A DNA stretch of 64,000 nt from Flavobacteriales bacterium (GTDB lineage: Bacteria > Bacteroidota > Bacteroidia > CAIKAF01). Where the stretch lies: positions 1 through 64,000 of the forward strand of contig JAOABX010000011.1 in assembly GCA_026418175.1 (NCBI GenBank), given 5' to 3'. This document shows positions 14,560 to 21,241 of this stretch, in pieces. The position numbers and the translations under genes are program-made. The first letter of the stretch is position 1. Every line of letters starts with the position of its first letter. Under the pieces are notes generated by a model, which did no database searches, had not been told where the DNA came from, and saw only the letters and a list, made by a program, of their open reading frames with translations.

Positions 14560-15330
14560 ATGAAAGATAATTTGCAACGATATTTTATAGAATGTGCCTA
14601 TGACGGAACAGCATACAATGGCTGGCAGATACAGCCTAATGGCATGGGCGTGCAGCAGGTTATAGAGGAAGCTTTGCATACGCTGTTTCGTAAAATATAT
14701 CCCATTCTTGGTTCTGGTAGAACAGATACCGGCGTGCATGCTCGTCAACAATTTGCCCATGTTGATCTTCCGGTAATGAATGATGATGCATTGCAACAAC
14801 TGGTTTATAAATTAAATAATATTTTACCTGAAGATATTTGTATTCGAAATATTTTTCCGGTGAAGCCAACAGCTCATGCACGTTTTGATGCCATTCGCCG
14901 TACATACAAGTATTATCTGTCGTTTCAAAAAGATGTGTTTTCTTTTCGACATCAATATTATTATCGTGGAAAATTAAATATGCAAGCCATGGAATCGGCA
15001 GCTGCTATTATTCCTCACTATACTGATTTTTCATCGTTTTGTAAGTCACATGCTGCATCTAAAACTCCATTTTGCAAAGTGGAAACTAGCTTTTGGGAAG
15101 AAACTGAACAAGGTTGGGTGTATACTATTTCTGCTGACCGTTTTTTACGTAATATGGTTCGGGCAATTGTTGGAACCATGATAGAAGCTGGAAAGGGTAA
15201 AATTTCAGCGGAAGAACTTCATCACATCATTCAAAAGAAAGACCGTCGTGCAGCTGGTTTTAGTGCTCCTGCCAATGGGCTTTTTTTGCATCGGGTAGAA
15301 TATCCGGAAGATATTTTTATTTTACAGTAA
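14560..15330 (+). CDS. truA: tRNA pseudouridine(38-40) synthase
   Basis: 256 residues. It converts uridines 38-40 of the tRNA anticodon arm to pseudouridine. The catalytic motif GSGRTDTGVHA is at residues 51-61 with nucleophilic Asp56. Other family elements are YDGTAYNGWQIQPNG near the N-terminus, HARFDAIRRTYKYYL and the C-terminal FLRNMVRAIVGTM. The length is normal. The gene begins 5 bases after the upstream membrane protein. Its 3' end overlaps the 3' end of the cyclase gene on the other strand by 9 bases. Confidence 0.96.
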   Translation: MKDNLQRYFIECAYDGTAYNGWQIQPNGMGVQQVIEEALHTLFRKIYPILGSGRTDTGVHARQQFAHVDLPVMNDDALQQLVYKLNNILPEDICIRNIFPVKPTAHARFDAIRRTYKYYLSFQKDVFSFRHQYYYRGKLNMQAMESAAAIIPHYTDFSSFCKSHAASKTPFCKVETSFWEETEQGWVYTISADRFLRNMVRAIVGTMIEAGKGKISAEELHHIIQKKDRRAAGFSAPANGLFLHRVEYPEDIFILQ

Positions 15331-17589
15331 TTGCTTATCTCCGTATTTTTTTAAATATCTGCCTAAAGCCCACAACGGGAAAACATTTCTATATGCGCTG
15401 TAGGTTATCATGCAATTGAAATTAAATACTCCTGAAATTTGCTCTTGAGGCCAATCGCCATTTAATTCCTGTTTTTTTAATAAAAAATTTATACCCCGGT
15501 CAATTACTTCTTTGTTCGGATAGTCAGCAGCCATTAAAGTAAGCAATGCCCATGATGTATTTACAATTTGTGATTCTTTTGATTCGATGTATTTTTTTTG
15601 TACAGAACTTTGAAATGATTCGCCCCATCCCCCGTCATCGCGCTGTTTACTACATAAAAACTCACAGGCTTTTTGAATGGCGATGTCAGGTATACCAGTT
15701 GAGTAATTATTGGCTCCTGCAGCTAGTAAAGCATCTACTCCAAACCAGGTTGCATAGGTAAAGCATACAGCCCATGAACCAAGCCATGAACCATCTTCTC
15801 TTTGTTTTTTTCGTATAAATTCTGCACCGCGTGCCAGACTTTTTTGTATTTCATATTTTTTATAATTCGGATAGTGTTTAGTGAATGTTGCTAAGGCTTG
15901 CATACTGGCTGAAGAACATTCAACATAGGAATAGTCAATCATGATATCGCCAAATACCTCGGAAGGATTCATCTTTTCGAGCCAACGTGGGGCTCTTGTA
16001 TTTTCATAACTAGCCCATCCGCCATCTTGGTTTTGAAAGGATAAAATTAAATCTGCCGACCAGTGTAATCGTTCATCTGATATTTTAGCTTTGACAGGTA
16101 TTTGTAGTTCATGAATTTTAAGCGAAGTTTTTAGTCCTTCCGATGTACAATCAGTAATGGGCCATCCATGTTCTAAAGTAGAAAATGGCCAACCCCCTTT
16201 GCTGGTGTGCCTAAAAAATTCTTTTGTTCCTGGAGGGTCTTCTTGTATTTGAGAAATTTCAGCGTAATGGTAGATTTTTTTTAGTACCTCTTTGCTTTTA
16301 TCGGAGGCTGGATATTCTAGTATAGCCTGGCCGGCAAACATGGTGTCCCATAATTGGGAACCATTGTAACCGTTCATTTTCATACCATCTTCAGCTATCC
16401 ATAAATAATCACTCCATCGGTCTTTGTGTTTTTTAAATGCTTCGCTATCTTTTCCGTGGGCATGCCAAATACATAACGAATTTATTACTTTATTAACCGG
16501 GCCAATATTGATATAGTTTGTTTGTAGATCTTCTGTTTCTATGTATTGTAACGCAAATTGCAGGGCTTTTTTTCTTAGCCAACGAATATGAAATTTTTCA
16601 TATGTATTTAGTATGGAATAAAGTATTTTTAGGAAATTGCTTTTGGGTGTGTAAACATCCTTGGGGCAAATAGTATTTCGGGCTTTTTTCCAGTTTATTT
16701 GGTCATAAGGTTCTGTATAAATTTCATTTCGTAGTTCAAGAATTAAATTATTTTCAGGAATCGTGATTTTTTGCCCATAAGCATACGACATGGGTAAATA
16801 CACCATGCGTGTGTGGCACCAATACTTCCCCGGATGAATAGGAAGCCATCGGGGTAGTATCCAAAGCTCCGGTAACAATGTATCACACCCTTTCCAATCA
16901 TAAGCTCCCAAAACTGATAGATAAAATTTTCCCCAGGATGGAGTACCGGTAGCACCTCCATTTGTTATTATCCATCTTCTGGCTTTTTCCAAAACAGGAT
17001 CTTGGGCTTTCATCCCCATTAGCCGCAGACTTACGTAGTGCATTACCGTGCCAAACATGGTAGATTCTCCCTCAATATGAAGTCCCCAACCACCATCGTT
17101 GCGCTGATGATTGAGAATATATCTTCGCATGAGTGTTTGAAATGGTTCTTCAATTTTTTCACCAGTTACATAAGCTGTTATTATCAATCCGGGTAGTAGA
17201 AACATTGGCCCCCCATAATCTCCCGGCCAGTTTCCATCTGTAGTTTGAAGCTGTGAATAAAATAAAACACCACTTTCAAATGCTTCCCGAATAGTTTTTT
17301 TCTGTTGACTTACGTAATTAGCAGAGGTATAAAGATGGCGCAAAACCTTATCACTAGCATTGGGATTAAGGATTGTATCAAATGTAAATGCTTGATCTAA
17401 TTCTTTTAAAAATCTCTGCGGACCAGGTTCATTCCAGTTAATAGGTGTATGTAGCTGGTATTCGTTTTTAATTTCAGCTTCAGGATCAAAAACCCATTGT
17501 TGCCTTCCTTTGTATGTTATCAGGCGAAAACATTTCCATAAGATAGTAGAAGTATTTTTTTTCTCAGAGGTTTCTATAAGTTCATTCAT
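15322..17589 (-). CDS. Oxidosqualene cyclase, cycloartenol-synthase-like
   Basis: 755 residues, the size of eukaryotic sterol cyclases. It should cyclise (S)-2,3-oxidosqualene to a tetracyclic or pentacyclic triterpenol. The initiating motif is DCTSE (480-484) with catalytic Asp480, in place of the DXDD of squalene-hopene cyclases. Cys558 in YVECSSAS matches the Cys that supports this Asp in human lanosterol synthase. Typical oxidosqualene-cyclase blocks are NWPGDYGGPMFLLPG (120-134), WCHTRMVYLPMSY (257-269) and GYNGSQLWDT (407-416), plus several QW-type repeats such as QREDGSW and QRDDGGWGESF. His259 suggests protosteryl chemistry; Tyr408, His474 and Ile478 match the product-determining Tyr410/His477/Ile481 of plant cycloartenol synthase. 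It is divergent from the squalene synthase gene. The product is predicted, not proven. Confidence 0.95.
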   Translation of the reverse strand: MNELIETSEKKNTSTILWKCFRLITYKGRQQWVFDPEAEIKNEYQLHTPINWNEPGPQRFLKELDQAFTFDTILNPNASDKVLRHLYTSANYVSQQKKTIREAFESGVLFYSQLQTTDGNWPGDYGGPMFLLPGLIITAYVTGEKIEEPFQTLMRRYILNHQRNDGGWGLHIEGESTMFGTVMHYVSLRLMGMKAQDPVLEKARRWIITNGGATGTPSWGKFYLSVLGAYDWKGCDTLLPELWILPRWLPIHPGKYWCHTRMVYLPMSYAYGQKITIPENNLILELRNEIYTEPYDQINWKKARNTICPKDVYTPKSNFLKILYSILNTYEKFHIRWLRKKALQFALQYIETEDLQTNYINIGPVNKVINSLCIWHAHGKDSEAFKKHKDRWSDYLWIAEDGMKMNGYNGSQLWDTMFAGQAILEYPASDKSKEVLKKIYHYAEISQIQEDPPGTKEFFRHTSKGGWPFSTLEHGWPITDCTSEGLKTSLKIHELQIPVKAKISDERLHWSADLILSFQNQDGGWASYENTRAPRWLEKMNPSEVFGDIMIDYSYVECSSASMQALATFTKHYPNYKKYEIQKSLARGAEFIRKKQREDGSWLGSWAVCFTYATWFGVDALLAAGANNYSTGIPDIAIQKACEFLCSKQRDDGGWGESFQSSVQKKYIESKESQIVNTSWALLTLMAADYPNKEVIDRGINFLLKKQELNGDWPQEQISGVFNFNCMITYSAYRNVFPLWALGRYLKKYGDKQLL

Positions 17590-17836
17590 GGTAAATGCAA
17601 AATGAAAGGCTTAAATTCGGCAATAAAAGCAACTTTTTTGCCAAAATTAATGTATAGAATCATGATTTTTTGTAAAATACAATTAATCAAGAAGATATGA
17701 TATATTATTAAAATATATTAAATTTTAAATATCCCATGGCATAAGATTTGCGATGAAAAAGGTTTGATTTTGAAAATTGAGGTGAAAGCAACTGTTTGAT
17801 TTTCCAAAATCGTGCCAATTTGCAGCAAGGTTACTT
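17590..17836. promoter_or_regulatory. Divergent promoter region between cyclase and squalene synthase
   Basis: 247 very AT-rich bases separate the two divergent start codons, with a stretch around 17695-17735 made almost only of A and T. On the minus strand, 17642-17649 reads TAATTTTG, an exact TAnnTTTG match about 53 bases before the cyclase ATG. On the plus strand I see only imperfect boxes (for example TGATTTTG at 17764-17771). A shared control region for the whole pathway is likely from layout. I see no clear operator palindrome. Confidence 0.5.
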
Positions 17837-19060
17837 ATGATAAAAGATATTTACGCATCCATTACCCGTCCGCGTGAAATAGCAGCGATGCTTAGCTTTC
17901 GGAAAAATTCACGTGAAATAAAATTGTACAAAGAATCACTAGATGAGCTTGCTTCTCAACTGTCTGACCGTGATTTCTGTTATGCAGCATTAAATAAAGT
18001 GTCGCGTTCGTTTGCTGTTGTGATCCAGCAATTGCCTGAACAGTTAAAAGATGCGGTATGTTTATTTTATTTAATTCTTAGAGCGTTAGATACCTTAGAA
18101 GATGATATGCGTTTTACAGACGATGAAAAATTGCCGCTTCTTCGTCGTTTTCATGAATTAATAGGAGATGAAACCTGGCATAAAGAAGGGATTGGTGATA
18201 CTGCAGATTATCGTGATTTATTAAAACATTACCCCAAAGTAGCACGAGCATACAATCAGTTAGGAAAAGAATATAAGCAGGTAATTAAAGATATTACGCA
18301 GCGTATGGGCCAGGGTATGGCTGATTTTGCAACTCGTAAAGTAAATTCATTGGAAGATTATGATGAATATTGTCATTATGTAGCCGGTTTGGTAGGTCAT
18401 GGTTTGTCTGGTTTGTTTTCAGCATCCGGTTTTGAATCTGAACAACTGAAGGACCAACTACAAATTTCAAATAGCATGGGTTTGTTTTTACAAAAAACAA
18501 ATATCATAAGGGATTATCATGAAGATTTGTATTTGGGACGTTCGTTTTGGCCTTCTGAAGTATGGAAGCAATATGCTGATCATTTTGATTATTTTGCCAA
18601 TGCACCAACAAACCCTGAGTCGTTGGCATGTCTGAATCATTTGGTAGCTAATGCCCTCAACCATATTCCGGATTGTATTCAGTATATGCGATTGTTACAA
18701 AATAAACAGGTGTTTCGATTTTGTGCTATACCACAGGTAATGGCCATGGCAACATTAGCTGAAGTATATAATAATCCGAAAGTGTTTACTGGTGTTGTGA
18801 AAATCCGAAAAGGTTTGGCCGCCCGGTTAATGTTGCATACCCAAAACATGGATGAAGTAATCAAAAGCTTCCGGAAGTTTTTAAGAATCATTGAAAATAA
18901 AATGAATTCAAATGATCCGCATACACCAGAAATGCAAATGCAATTAAAATATATATATCAACTGCTTGATAAGCCTGAATTGTCAGCAGATCAATCAAGG
19001 GTATTGTCCTCACAGGCTTCTCAAGATTCTGTAAAAAAAATGGTTGAACAAGAAGTTTGA
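17837..19060 (+). CDS. Squalene synthase, eukaryote-like
   Basis: 407 residues. It condenses two farnesyl diphosphates to presqualene diphosphate and reduces this to squalene with NADPH. Both aspartate-rich motifs are present: DTLEDD (85-90) and NIIRDYHED (222-230). Blocks highly typical of eukaryotic FDFT1/ERG9 are SRSFAVVIQQLP, YCHYVAGLVGHGLSGLF and CAIPQVMAMATL. Length and motifs fit the single-enzyme squalene synthase rather than the bacterial HpnC/HpnD/HpnE route. Unlike many eukaryotic forms it shows no C-terminal membrane helix; the tail is Ser/Gln-rich and polar. The monooxygenase gene begins 3 bases after its stop, so the two form an operon. It supplies the substrate for the next two enzymes. 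Confidence 0.96.
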   Translation: MIKDIYASITRPREIAAMLSFRKNSREIKLYKESLDELASQLSDRDFCYAALNKVSRSFAVVIQQLPEQLKDAVCLFYLILRALDTLEDDMRFTDDEKLPLLRRFHELIGDETWHKEGIGDTADYRDLLKHYPKVARAYNQLGKEYKQVIKDITQRMGQGMADFATRKVNSLEDYDEYCHYVAGLVGHGLSGLFSASGFESEQLKDQLQISNSMGLFLQKTNIIRDYHEDLYLGRSFWPSEVWKQYADHFDYFANAPTNPESLACLNHLVANALNHIPDCIQYMRLLQNKQVFRFCAIPQVMAMATLAEVYNNPKVFTGVVKIRKGLAARLMLHTQNMDEVIKSFRKFLRIIENKMNSNDPHTPEMQMQLKYIYQLLDKPELSADQSRVLSSQASQDSVKKMVEQEV

Positions 19061-19063
19061 AAT

Positions 19064-20494
19064 ATGGAAGTACTTGACAGAAAAATATCCACCACAATTT
19101 CCTCTAGCGGAAATGAAAAAATACAAACTCAGGTATGTATTGTTGGAGGAGGCCTTACCGGTTCCTCATTGGCAACTTTTCTAGGAAAGCAACAAATTCC
19201 GGTAGTAATTATAGAAAAAGATTGGAACGAGGTTGACAGGATTGTAGGTGAATTACTCCAACCGGGGGGGGTTCAGCAACTCAAAAATATGGGCATTGAA
19301 CAGGTGTTAGAAGGGATTGATGCACAGCCGGTTTATGGATATTCAATTTTTAGGAAAGGGAAAAGTATTCAGGTTGCTTATCCGTTGGGTGATGATTTTT
19401 CGCCAGGCATGGGATTTAGAAATGGAAAATTTGTTCAAAATATTCGTTCCTTGCTTAACGAACTTACATCAGTAACGAGGATACATGGAAATGTAACAGA
19501 ATTGGTGTATGAAAATGAACAGAAAATTTCCGGAGTGAAATATGTTACGGAAGAGGGTAAAATAGTTGAGGTGGAGGCGGCATTAACGGTAGTTTGTGAT
19601 GGAATTTTTTCTCGATTCAGGGAACAATTAAATGCAGAAAGGCATCGGGTAACTGGTTTTTTTGCTGGACTTGTTTTAGAAAATGTAACATTGCCAACTC
19701 CTTCTTATGGTCATGTATTTATAACCGATCAAACTCCTTTTTTGGTTTATCCCATTACATCAACTAGCGCTCGAATGTTGATTGATTTTCCGGGTGAACA
19801 ACCTCCACGTATTACCGATGAATTTAGGGAAATGTTAAAAAGCAAGCTTATTCATGATATGCCTGAAATACTACGCCCGGCATTTATCCAAGCTGTGGAA
19901 GAAGGCAAAATAAAAATTATGCCGAATCATAAATTAAATGTAAAACCAATTTTGGTTGAAGGTGCTGTGTTGATAGGTGATGCTTTGAATATGCGCCATC
20001 CATTGACCGGTGGAGGAATGACGGTAGCTTTTACCGATGTTTATCAATTGGGCAAACGAATCATTGATTATTATCAACACGGAATATTTGAAACCATTGA
20101 TCAAGCTATACAAGATTTTTATTCTTCCAAATCATCACATACCGGATCAATCAATATATTGGCTGATGCCTTGTATGGAGTAATGAGTGATGACGAATTG
20201 AGCGAAGCTTGTTTTAATTATTTGGCTCAGGGTGGCCATTATGCATCAGAGCCTGTATCGTTGCTTTCTGCCATAAGCAGAAATAAAAAATTACTGACGA
20301 AACATTTTTTTGCAGTGGCATGGTTTGGAGCATGGAAAAAAATGAAAAAATCGTTCTCTATTCAAGCACTTCGTGAATCATATTTTATGATTGGAAGAGC
20401 CACTATATTGGTTCGTCCGTTACTATTGGCTGAAAAACCAAGCTGGTTGATGAAGCAGCTGTTAGCATTTTCCAATTTGTTGTATAAAAAGTAA
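19064..20494 (+). CDS. Squalene monooxygenase (epoxidase)
   Basis: 476 residues. FAD-dependent enzyme that converts squalene to (S)-2,3-oxidosqualene with O2. The dinucleotide-binding fold starts at VCIVGGGLTGSSLATFLG (about 24-41). The squalene epoxidase signature RIVGELLQPGG is at 59-69, and the second FAD motif GDALNMRHPLTGGGM lies in the C-terminal half, followed by VAFTD. These separate it from other FAD monooxygenases of the family. There is no N-terminal membrane segment; the C-terminal 80 residues are hydrophobic and basic and probably attach it to the membrane. It is 3 bp after the squalene synthase gene. A run of eight G at 19264-19271 encodes part of the signature. Confidence 0.95.
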   Translation: MEVLDRKISTTISSSGNEKIQTQVCIVGGGLTGSSLATFLGKQQIPVVIIEKDWNEVDRIVGELLQPGGVQQLKNMGIEQVLEGIDAQPVYGYSIFRKGKSIQVAYPLGDDFSPGMGFRNGKFVQNIRSLLNELTSVTRIHGNVTELVYENEQKISGVKYVTEEGKIVEVEAALTVVCDGIFSRFREQLNAERHRVTGFFAGLVLENVTLPTPSYGHVFITDQTPFLVYPITSTSARMLIDFPGEQPPRITDEFREMLKSKLIHDMPEILRPAFIQAVEEGKIKIMPNHKLNVKPILVEGAVLIGDALNMRHPLTGGGMTVAFTDVYQLGKRIIDYYQHGIFETIDQAIQDFYSSKSSHTGSINILADALYGVMSDDELSEACFNYLAQGGHYASEPVSLLSAISRNKKLLTKHFFAVAWFGAWKKMKKSFSIQALRESYFMIGRATILVRPLLLAEKPSWLMKQLLAFSNLLYKK

Positions 20495-20495
20495 G

Positions 20496-20522
20496 GCAAG
20501 TTTCTATACACTTGCTTTATTT
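20496..20522. terminator. Weak bidirectional terminator
   Basis: GCAAGT and ACTTGC (20496-20501 and 20510-20515) form a 6-bp stem with an 8-base loop, with TTTATTT on one side and an A-rich flank on the other. It sits between the convergent monooxygenase and desaturase genes and overlaps the last codons of the latter. Confidence 0.4.
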
Positions 20523-21241
20523 AGTTGAATTAAGCCTAACGTATTAAATAATACAATAAAGGGATAAACAGTATCAAATTCAAACCACTTCACTGCAAAA
20601 TTAGCCCTTGCAGGAAATTGATGGTGGTTGTTATGATAACCTTCTCCTTGCATTAGAAAATTGAAAAAATAAAGGTTTTTTGAAGTGTTGTTTTGTTTAA
20701 AATTAACATATCCGGTTTTGTGAGCAAACCAGTTTACAATTACACCATGAAATGGACCCATCACAAAATGAATGGGTAGTAATAAATACAACCACCAGTA
20801 TTCAGCAAAGTAAATATAAAATGATATGTACACTAAACACCATAATATTCGTGATGTAATTGATTCAGCCCAATTATCAAATGCATGCCAGTGAGGAACA
20901 TTTTTAGTAAACTTTTCATCCACTTTTATTCTGCCTCTAAATATATCAGAATAAACTTTCTTTGTATCCCACATCATGGCAAACATATTTTTTGAATATC
21001 TGGGTGAATGAGGGTCTTTTTCGGTATCAGTATATGCATGGTGCATTCGATGCATTACCCCATATGCATAGGGACTTAAATATGATGATCCCTGAAAAAT
21101 ATAAGAAACAATAAACCAAAATTTTTCCCACCCCTTACTCATAGTAAATTGGCTGTGGGCTGCATATCGATGATTGAAAAATGATTGAGTAAATAAAGAT
21201 AGATACCAATGTGCAAAGAAGAAAATCAAAATAATAACCAT
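20504..21241 (-). CDS. Acyl-CoA desaturase-like membrane di-iron enzyme
   Basis: 245 residues. The three histidine boxes of stearoyl-CoA desaturase-type enzymes are present: HRYAAH (24-29), HRMHH (64-68) and HNNHH (203-207), with a further conserved His174 in NWFAHKTG. Hydrophobic segments lie around residues 1-20, 42-60, 130-150 and 150-170. The enzyme would introduce a double bond into a saturated acyl chain using O2 and an electron carrier. It is convergent with the squalene monooxygenase gene, only 9 bp apart, so it is not in that operon. The box spacing is that of fatty-acyl desaturases rather than of sterol C-4 methyl or C-5 oxidases, so I do not assign it to sterol tailoring. Confidence 0.87.
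   Translation of the reverse strand: MVIILIFFFAHWYLSLFTQSFFNHRYAAHSQFTMSKGWEKFWFIVSYIFQGSSYLSPYAYGVMHRMHHAYTDTEKDPHSPRYSKNMFAMMWDTKKVYSDIFRGRIKVDEKFTKNVPHWHAFDNWAESITSRILWCLVYISFYIYFAEYWWLYLLLPIHFVMGPFHGVIVNWFAHKTGYVNFKQNNTSKNLYFFNFLMQGEGYHNNHHQFPARANFAVKWFEFDTVYPFIVLFNTLGLIQLNKASV

Follow-up and report, generated by a model that had tools for sequence, protein, structure and literature searches.

Cycloartenol synthesis by a member of the Bacteroidota has already been published. Cultures of Fluviicola taffensis contain cycloartenol as their sole sterol, and neither CYP51 nor any other later sterol gene was reported from that organism (PMC4919349). Thus, the chemistry itself is known. Moreover, the product of an oxidosqualene cyclase (OSC) can be related to a small set of residues, given here in human numbering. 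Known cycloartenol synthases invariably carry Tyr, His, and Ile at positions 381, 449, and 453 (PMC5101207), as in Arabidopsis CAS1 and other plant enzymes (PMC5101207, PMC4919349), and in all bacteria tested, Ile453 goes with cycloartenol and Val453 with lanosterol (PMC4919349); the bacteria behind the Tyr/His/Ile product rule are few. Human lanosterol synthase has Thr/Cys/Val at the three positions, and the lanosterol synthases of Methylococcales (L043 of Methylobacter luteus and others) have Tyr/Asn/Val or Tyr/Gln/Val. Another Bacteroidota enzyme, the OSC of Eudoraea adriatica, reportedly gives an arborane-type product.

Here, we describe an OSC encoded in a stretch of 64,000 nucleotides (the window) from an uncultured order of Bacteroidia. 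Locus L119 (genome G476), which we take to be the F. taffensis OSC Fluta_3214, is among the closest described systems. There, the epoxidase lies seven genes from the cyclase, as is also the case for the published locus tags Fluta_3214 and Fluta_3221. Like the window OSC, L119 has His/Tyr/His/Ile at positions 232, 381, 449, and 453, belongs to the same large clade, and has squalene synthase and epoxidase genes nearby, and the window's own genome likewise lacks CYP51. The two cyclases are 51% identical, however, and whereas the F. taffensis sterol genes form one run, the window OSC is divergent from a squalene synthase-epoxidase pair. We note that the F. taffensis run (L119:8963-19862) holds, on one strand, the OSC, a polyprenyl synthase (PF00348), genes that look like those of the mevalonate pathway, the epoxidase, and squalene synthase; within the stretch that these sterol genes enclose, the profile scan covered the polyprenyl synthase. 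The Methylococcales lanosterol synthases share the protosteryl-type His and a neighboring epoxidase with the window OSC and are 52 to 55% identical to it. CYP51-like genes lie around three of them (L043, L042, and L016), and L043 also has SdmAB-like genes, but neither kind is found around the window OSC.

Results

The OSC reading frame starts with ATG and has zero internal stops, and the plus strand over the same interval is stop rich (Table 1). The initial annotation had placed an OSC of 755 residues here without giving a strand; the gene is real and is encoded on the minus strand. The protein scored 703 bits against the OSC family model TIGR01787, above the cut-off of 322.7, and matched human lanosterol synthase (1w6k) with an E value of 1.6e-221 by phmmer. 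The score against a narrower model, TIGR03463, was 729 bits, below its cut-off of 851, and the score against the hopene-cyclase model TIGR01507 was 261 bits, far below its cut-off of 431. Compared with a 90%-identical relative, the gene had a dN of 0.058 and a dS of 1.05, and thus the OSC is under strong purifying selection.

Table 1. Positions of the cyclase gene, its key codons, adjoining genes, and related features at other loci
Feature	Position	Strand	Details and basis
Oxidosqualene cyclase (OSC), predicted cycloartenol synthase	15322..17589	-	755 aa, stop codon included; family models, alignments, structure model, tree
Codon of His259 (human His232), protosteryl-type His	16813..16815	-	Alignment
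Codon of Tyr408 (human Thr381)	16366..16368	-	Alignment
Codon of His474 (human Cys449)	16168..16170	-	Alignment
Codon of Ile478 (human Val453); Ile here goes with cycloartenol in the bacteria tested	16156..16158	-	Alignment; PMC4919349
Codon of Asp480 (human Asp455), epoxide-opening acid	16150..16152	-	Alignment
Codon of Cys558 (human Cys533), partner of catalytic Asp	15916..15918	-	Alignment
Divergent intergenic region, OSC/squalene synthase-epoxidase pair	17590..17836	.	
Squalene synthase	17837..19060	+	407 aa; DTLED and DYHED motifs; TIGR01559 468 bits, cut-off 287; PF00494
Squalene epoxidase (monooxygenase)	19064..20494	+	476 aa; PF08491 251.6 bits; FAD motifs GGGLTG, DGIFS, GDA
DesA-like fatty acid desaturase, facing epoxidase	20504-21241		
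Squalene synthase-epoxidase fusion	L079:137-2677	-	845-847 aa (both fusions); PF00494 + PF08491
Squalene synthase-epoxidase fusion	L095:301-2835	+	845-847 aa (both fusions); PF00494 + PF08491
Rieske oxygenase, sole one in own genome (G000:C55)	L085:6401-7432		Distant SdmA match

The active site is that of an OSC with the residues of a cycloartenol synthase. Correspondences to the human enzyme were taken from HMMER and MAFFT sequence alignments, which were ungapped near the sites, and not from model coordinates. Where squalene-hopene cyclases have DXDD, the window OSC has DCTSE (in ITDCTSE), and its D480, C481, E484, and C558 correspond to human D455, C456, E459, and C533. Among the human cavity positions compared, 23 of 29 are identical in the OSC, including D455, C456, C533, E459, W230, H232, and Y98, as well as W387, F444, Y503, F521, W581, F696, and Y707. 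Of the six that differ, three form the product trio, and the other three (human 338, 502, and 699) are conservatively substituted. Tyr408, His474, and Ile478 make up the trio, which matches the cycloartenol-synthase pattern at 381, 449, and 453 in a bacterial protein; the Val453 of lanosterol synthases is replaced by Ile478. Moreover, position 232 is His259, in contrast to the Tyr of plant 8j5z, which goes with dammarenyl-type enzymes.

The window protein was modeled with AlphaFold2 from its own sequence and those of 24 relatives, and the model had a mean pLDDT of 87.4 and a pTM of 0.90. Its top folds in the PDB were the human OSC structures 1w6j and 1w6k (TM 0.88/0.91), and plant TwOSC1 and then squalene-hopene cyclase (0.73) followed. 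Human lanosterol synthase thus resembles the window OSC in fold, in the catalytic Asp/Cys set, and in most cavity residues but differs in the trio, and the two are 43% identical by structural alignment. The initial annotation had named His259 in WCHTRMVY, the trio, and Asp480 in DCTSE and had proposed a comparison with 1w6k. All of these residues occur where it put them, and the trio falls at the product-determining positions by sequence alignment to the human enzyme.

A maximum-likelihood tree of OSCs was rooted with a squalene-hopene cyclase that has DXDD; it included human lanosterol synthase and was built without eukaryotic cycloartenol synthases. The window OSC formed a clade with L002, L045, and L003 at full support (100/100). 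That clade was nested in a large Bacteroidota and Methylococcales group that holds Fluviicola as well as the Methylococcales lanosterol synthases. Backbone support between the window clade and Fluviicola was moderate (95/87 and 61/73), some inner branches of the tree were weak, and several terminal branches were long. A pair of Eudoraea-like OSCs fell outside the clade of window, Fluviicola, Methylococcales, and human enzymes, and fused cyclases fell outside the large Bacteroidota and Methylococcales group. Horizontal transfer of the OSC within the phylum was considered and set aside: the OSCs of the window's order were not monophyletic, yet monophyly was not rejected (AU p 0.10). We note that L045 is labeled Candidatus Competibacteraceae, a label that looks wrong, as genome G392, with the same OSC, was placed in the window's genus.

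The genes that would supply the cyclase adjoin it. Squalene epoxidase lies directly 3' of squalene synthase, and the pair is upstream of the OSC and divergent from it. A promoter scan of the region between them found promoter-like sites no commoner than in shuffled sequences. Compared with the nearest relative, the three genes had dN values of 0.05 to 0.08 and dS values of 0.9 to 1.25, and thus all three are strongly constrained. As squalene synthase and epoxidase sit beside the OSC, the module spans the steps from farnesyl diphosphate to a cyclized product. The desaturase that faces the epoxidase was considered as a further member and rejected: it is DesA-like, and among the flanks compared, those of the 90%-identical relative alone retain it.

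The window's own genome is 2.68 Mb and 99.7% complete and encodes one OSC. A search for a second triterpene cyclase, hopene cyclase included, found none in it (E 0.001). Likewise, searches for cytochrome P450 found none in the genome, while control searches were positive in seven genomes, and therefore the genome lacks CYP51. A search for ERG24 gave zero matches in the genome, as did its control search anywhere, so that ERG24 may still be present.

The OSC is present in 10 of 16 genomes and five of six genera of the window's order, and squalene epoxidase is present in exactly the same 10 genomes. The divergent arrangement of the squalene synthase-epoxidase pair and OSC recurs in most Bacteroidota relatives; in G401 and G402 the pair is found elsewhere in the genome, away from the OSC. 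In two species of one genus (g179) of the window's family, a single reading frame encodes squalene synthase joined to epoxidase. In Bacteroidota as a whole, sterol synthesis is rare. Among 392 genomes drawn across the phylum, the sole close protosteryl OSC was the window's own, and four more genomes held a relative of 34 to 37% identity. A strong OSC match occurred in 16 of 240 genomes of the Crocinitomicaceae, the family of locus L010.

Natural variants of the trio were observed in two groups. Two OSCs of the window's order (L029:9941-12286 and L035:7312-9612, from genomes G403 and G404) have Tyr/Gln/Ile, with Gln in place of His at 449 and Ile453 kept. F. taffensis and its close kin have Ile453, in contrast to seven OSCs of the Fluviicola family (L101, L105, L110, L111, L121, L123, and L124) that combine Val453 with a Tyr/His background and a change of Gly450 to Ala.

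Discussion

We conclude that the window encodes a protosteryl-type OSC, and the residue set indicates that its product is probably cycloartenol. The experimental anchor for this prediction is the lipid analysis of one relative, F. taffensis. Because the window OSC shares His/Tyr/His/Ile with that enzyme, and because the Eudoraea-like OSCs are more distant and carry other residues at the same positions, cycloartenol is the best prediction and an arborane is disfavored. By gene content, the route is complete: three genes lead from farnesyl diphosphate to a precursor of plant-type sterols, most likely cycloartenol.

By analogy with the human and plant enzymes, for which the course of the cyclase reaction is established, the pathway may proceed as follows. 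Squalene synthase would couple two molecules of farnesyl diphosphate to squalene, which squalene epoxidase would convert with O2 to 2,3-oxidosqualene. Asp480, paired with Cys558, would protonate the epoxide, and the cyclase would fold the chain in a chair-boat-chair conformation to give the protosteryl cation. Methyl and hydride shifts would then proceed to a C-9 cation, and Tyr408, His474, and Ile478 may steer loss of the C-19 proton so as to close the 9,19-cyclopropane ring. As the genome lacks CYP51, the pathway likely ends with cycloartenol or with a derivative little changed from it, and we infer that this end product is probably used as a membrane sterol.

Other products deserve weight. 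The same cation could lose a proton from C-11 or C-8 instead, such that a protosteryl-type cyclase would make mainly parkeol or lanosterol or a mixture of either with cycloartenol. Gemmata yields both lanosterol and parkeol. Mutagenesis indicates that small changes in the cavity shift the product ratio, and two of the trio positions are variable among lanosterol synthases, a few of which carry Tyr or His there (PMC4919349, PMC5101207). Ile453, however, tracked cycloartenol in all tested bacteria (PMC4919349), and the full Tyr/His/Ile set of the window OSC is that of F. taffensis. We regard such an enzyme as the main rival to a cycloartenol synthase, though an unlikely one. The initial annotation had offered cycloartenol or parkeol, with an arborane as a further option. 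Cycloartenol gains from the F. taffensis OSC, with the same four residues in the same large clade; parkeol keeps its chance because sequence alone does not show whether a cycloartenol synthase makes one product or several; and the arborane option is weakened. Synthesis of a pentacyclic triterpenol, as in Eudoraea adriatica, draws on the fact that this other product class was reported from a Bacteroidota OSC. We take L128 and L129, from two genomes of one Flavobacteriaceae genus, to be probable Eudoraea-type arborane OSCs, on a basis that includes a divergent adjoining epoxidase and Val453. They resemble the window OSC in coming from Bacteroidota and in that divergent adjoining epoxidase. Nevertheless, the probable Eudoraea-genus OSCs (G942 and G754) are only about 36% identical to it, have Tyr/Phe/Asn/Val at 232, 381, 449, and 453, and occupy a separate deep branch outside the clade of window, Fluviicola, Methylococcales, and human enzymes, and an arborane product is highly improbable. 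Finally, a squalene-hopene cyclase or other cyclase of squalene rather than oxidosqualene would have the superfamily fold and Pfam domains in common with the window protein, but DCTSE replaces DXDD, the hopene-cyclase model scores far under its cut-off, the protein does not fall among squalene-hopene cyclases in a tree rooted on one of them, and an epoxidase adjoins the gene and accompanies it across the order. The chance of such an activity is negligible. Residues and tree together led us to reject both the arborane and the squalene-hopene cyclase readings.

Cycloartenol might also be an intermediate that is oxidized further, for example at C-4, by the single Rieske oxygenase of the genome or by one of its nine FA_hydroxylase proteins. 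This is compatible with cycloartenol as the cyclase product, and we consider it doubtful. The top NCBIfam match of the Rieske protein, the only one in the genome, is SdmA, a 4beta-methylsterol monooxygenase, and this distant match is the sole hint of further modification, yet its 103.6 bits fall well short of the cut-off, 600 bits. Moreover, the protein is 24 to 27% identical to Methylococcales Rieske proteins encoded near OSCs and, over 216 aa, 31% identical to the SdmA-like protein at locus L082, which is itself 55% identical to an SdmA-like protein of Methylobacter luteus. On score and identities we rejected it as a true SdmA. Its gene is away from the OSC, and cycloartenol is the only sterol of F. 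taffensis, whose OSC carries the same residues. The number of FA_hydroxylase genes does not follow the OSC within the order. They are present in OSC-negative genomes and absent from two OSC-positive ones, for six of the seven proteins scanned the sole match is to an ornithine-lipid hydroxylase model, far under its cut-off, and a role as sterol oxidases is unsupported. We speculate, as a long shot, that a sterol of the cycloartane type is made in the order and then altered without CYP51, for example by C-4 oxidation with the single SdmA-like Rieske oxygenase. If so, these bacteria would be a distinct source of biomarkers, with a 4-methyl cycloartane lipid as the product; to our knowledge, no such bacterial lipid is known so far.

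A separate sterol gene cluster was observed in another class of the same phylum (L082:7131-16316 in G380, also L081 and L083). It holds genes for a sterol methyltransferase, a P450 about 38% identical to a Methylococcales P450 near an OSC, ERG4/ERG24, an SdmA-like Rieske protein, and an SdmB-like SDR, with squalene epoxidase fused to the OSC in one frame of about 1,140 aa. Fused SMO/OSC proteins have been mentioned (PMC10070321), and clusters of similar layout are described from Rhodothermia (PMC9531527). Thus, this type of cluster is probably known already.

The initial annotation did not mention the published cycloartenol-making Bacteroidota, and its claim is therefore less new than it sounds. 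The present findings add breadth: a module of squalene synthase, epoxidase, and OSC is conserved in an uncultured order of Bacteroidia, the first two enzymes are fused in one genus, and relatives of Fluviicola offer natural variants with Val for Ile at position 453. These variants, found in Crocinitomicaceae on a Tyr/His background, are natural material for testing the rule that one residue decides between cycloartenol and lanosterol. Sterol synthesis is rare in Bacteroidota yet is a standing trait of the window's order, and thus the phylum is likely a broader bacterial source of cycloartenol than one cultured species. Ultimately, this bears on how far steranes and cycloartanes can be read as eukaryotic markers and on whether bacterial cyclases derive from eukaryotes.
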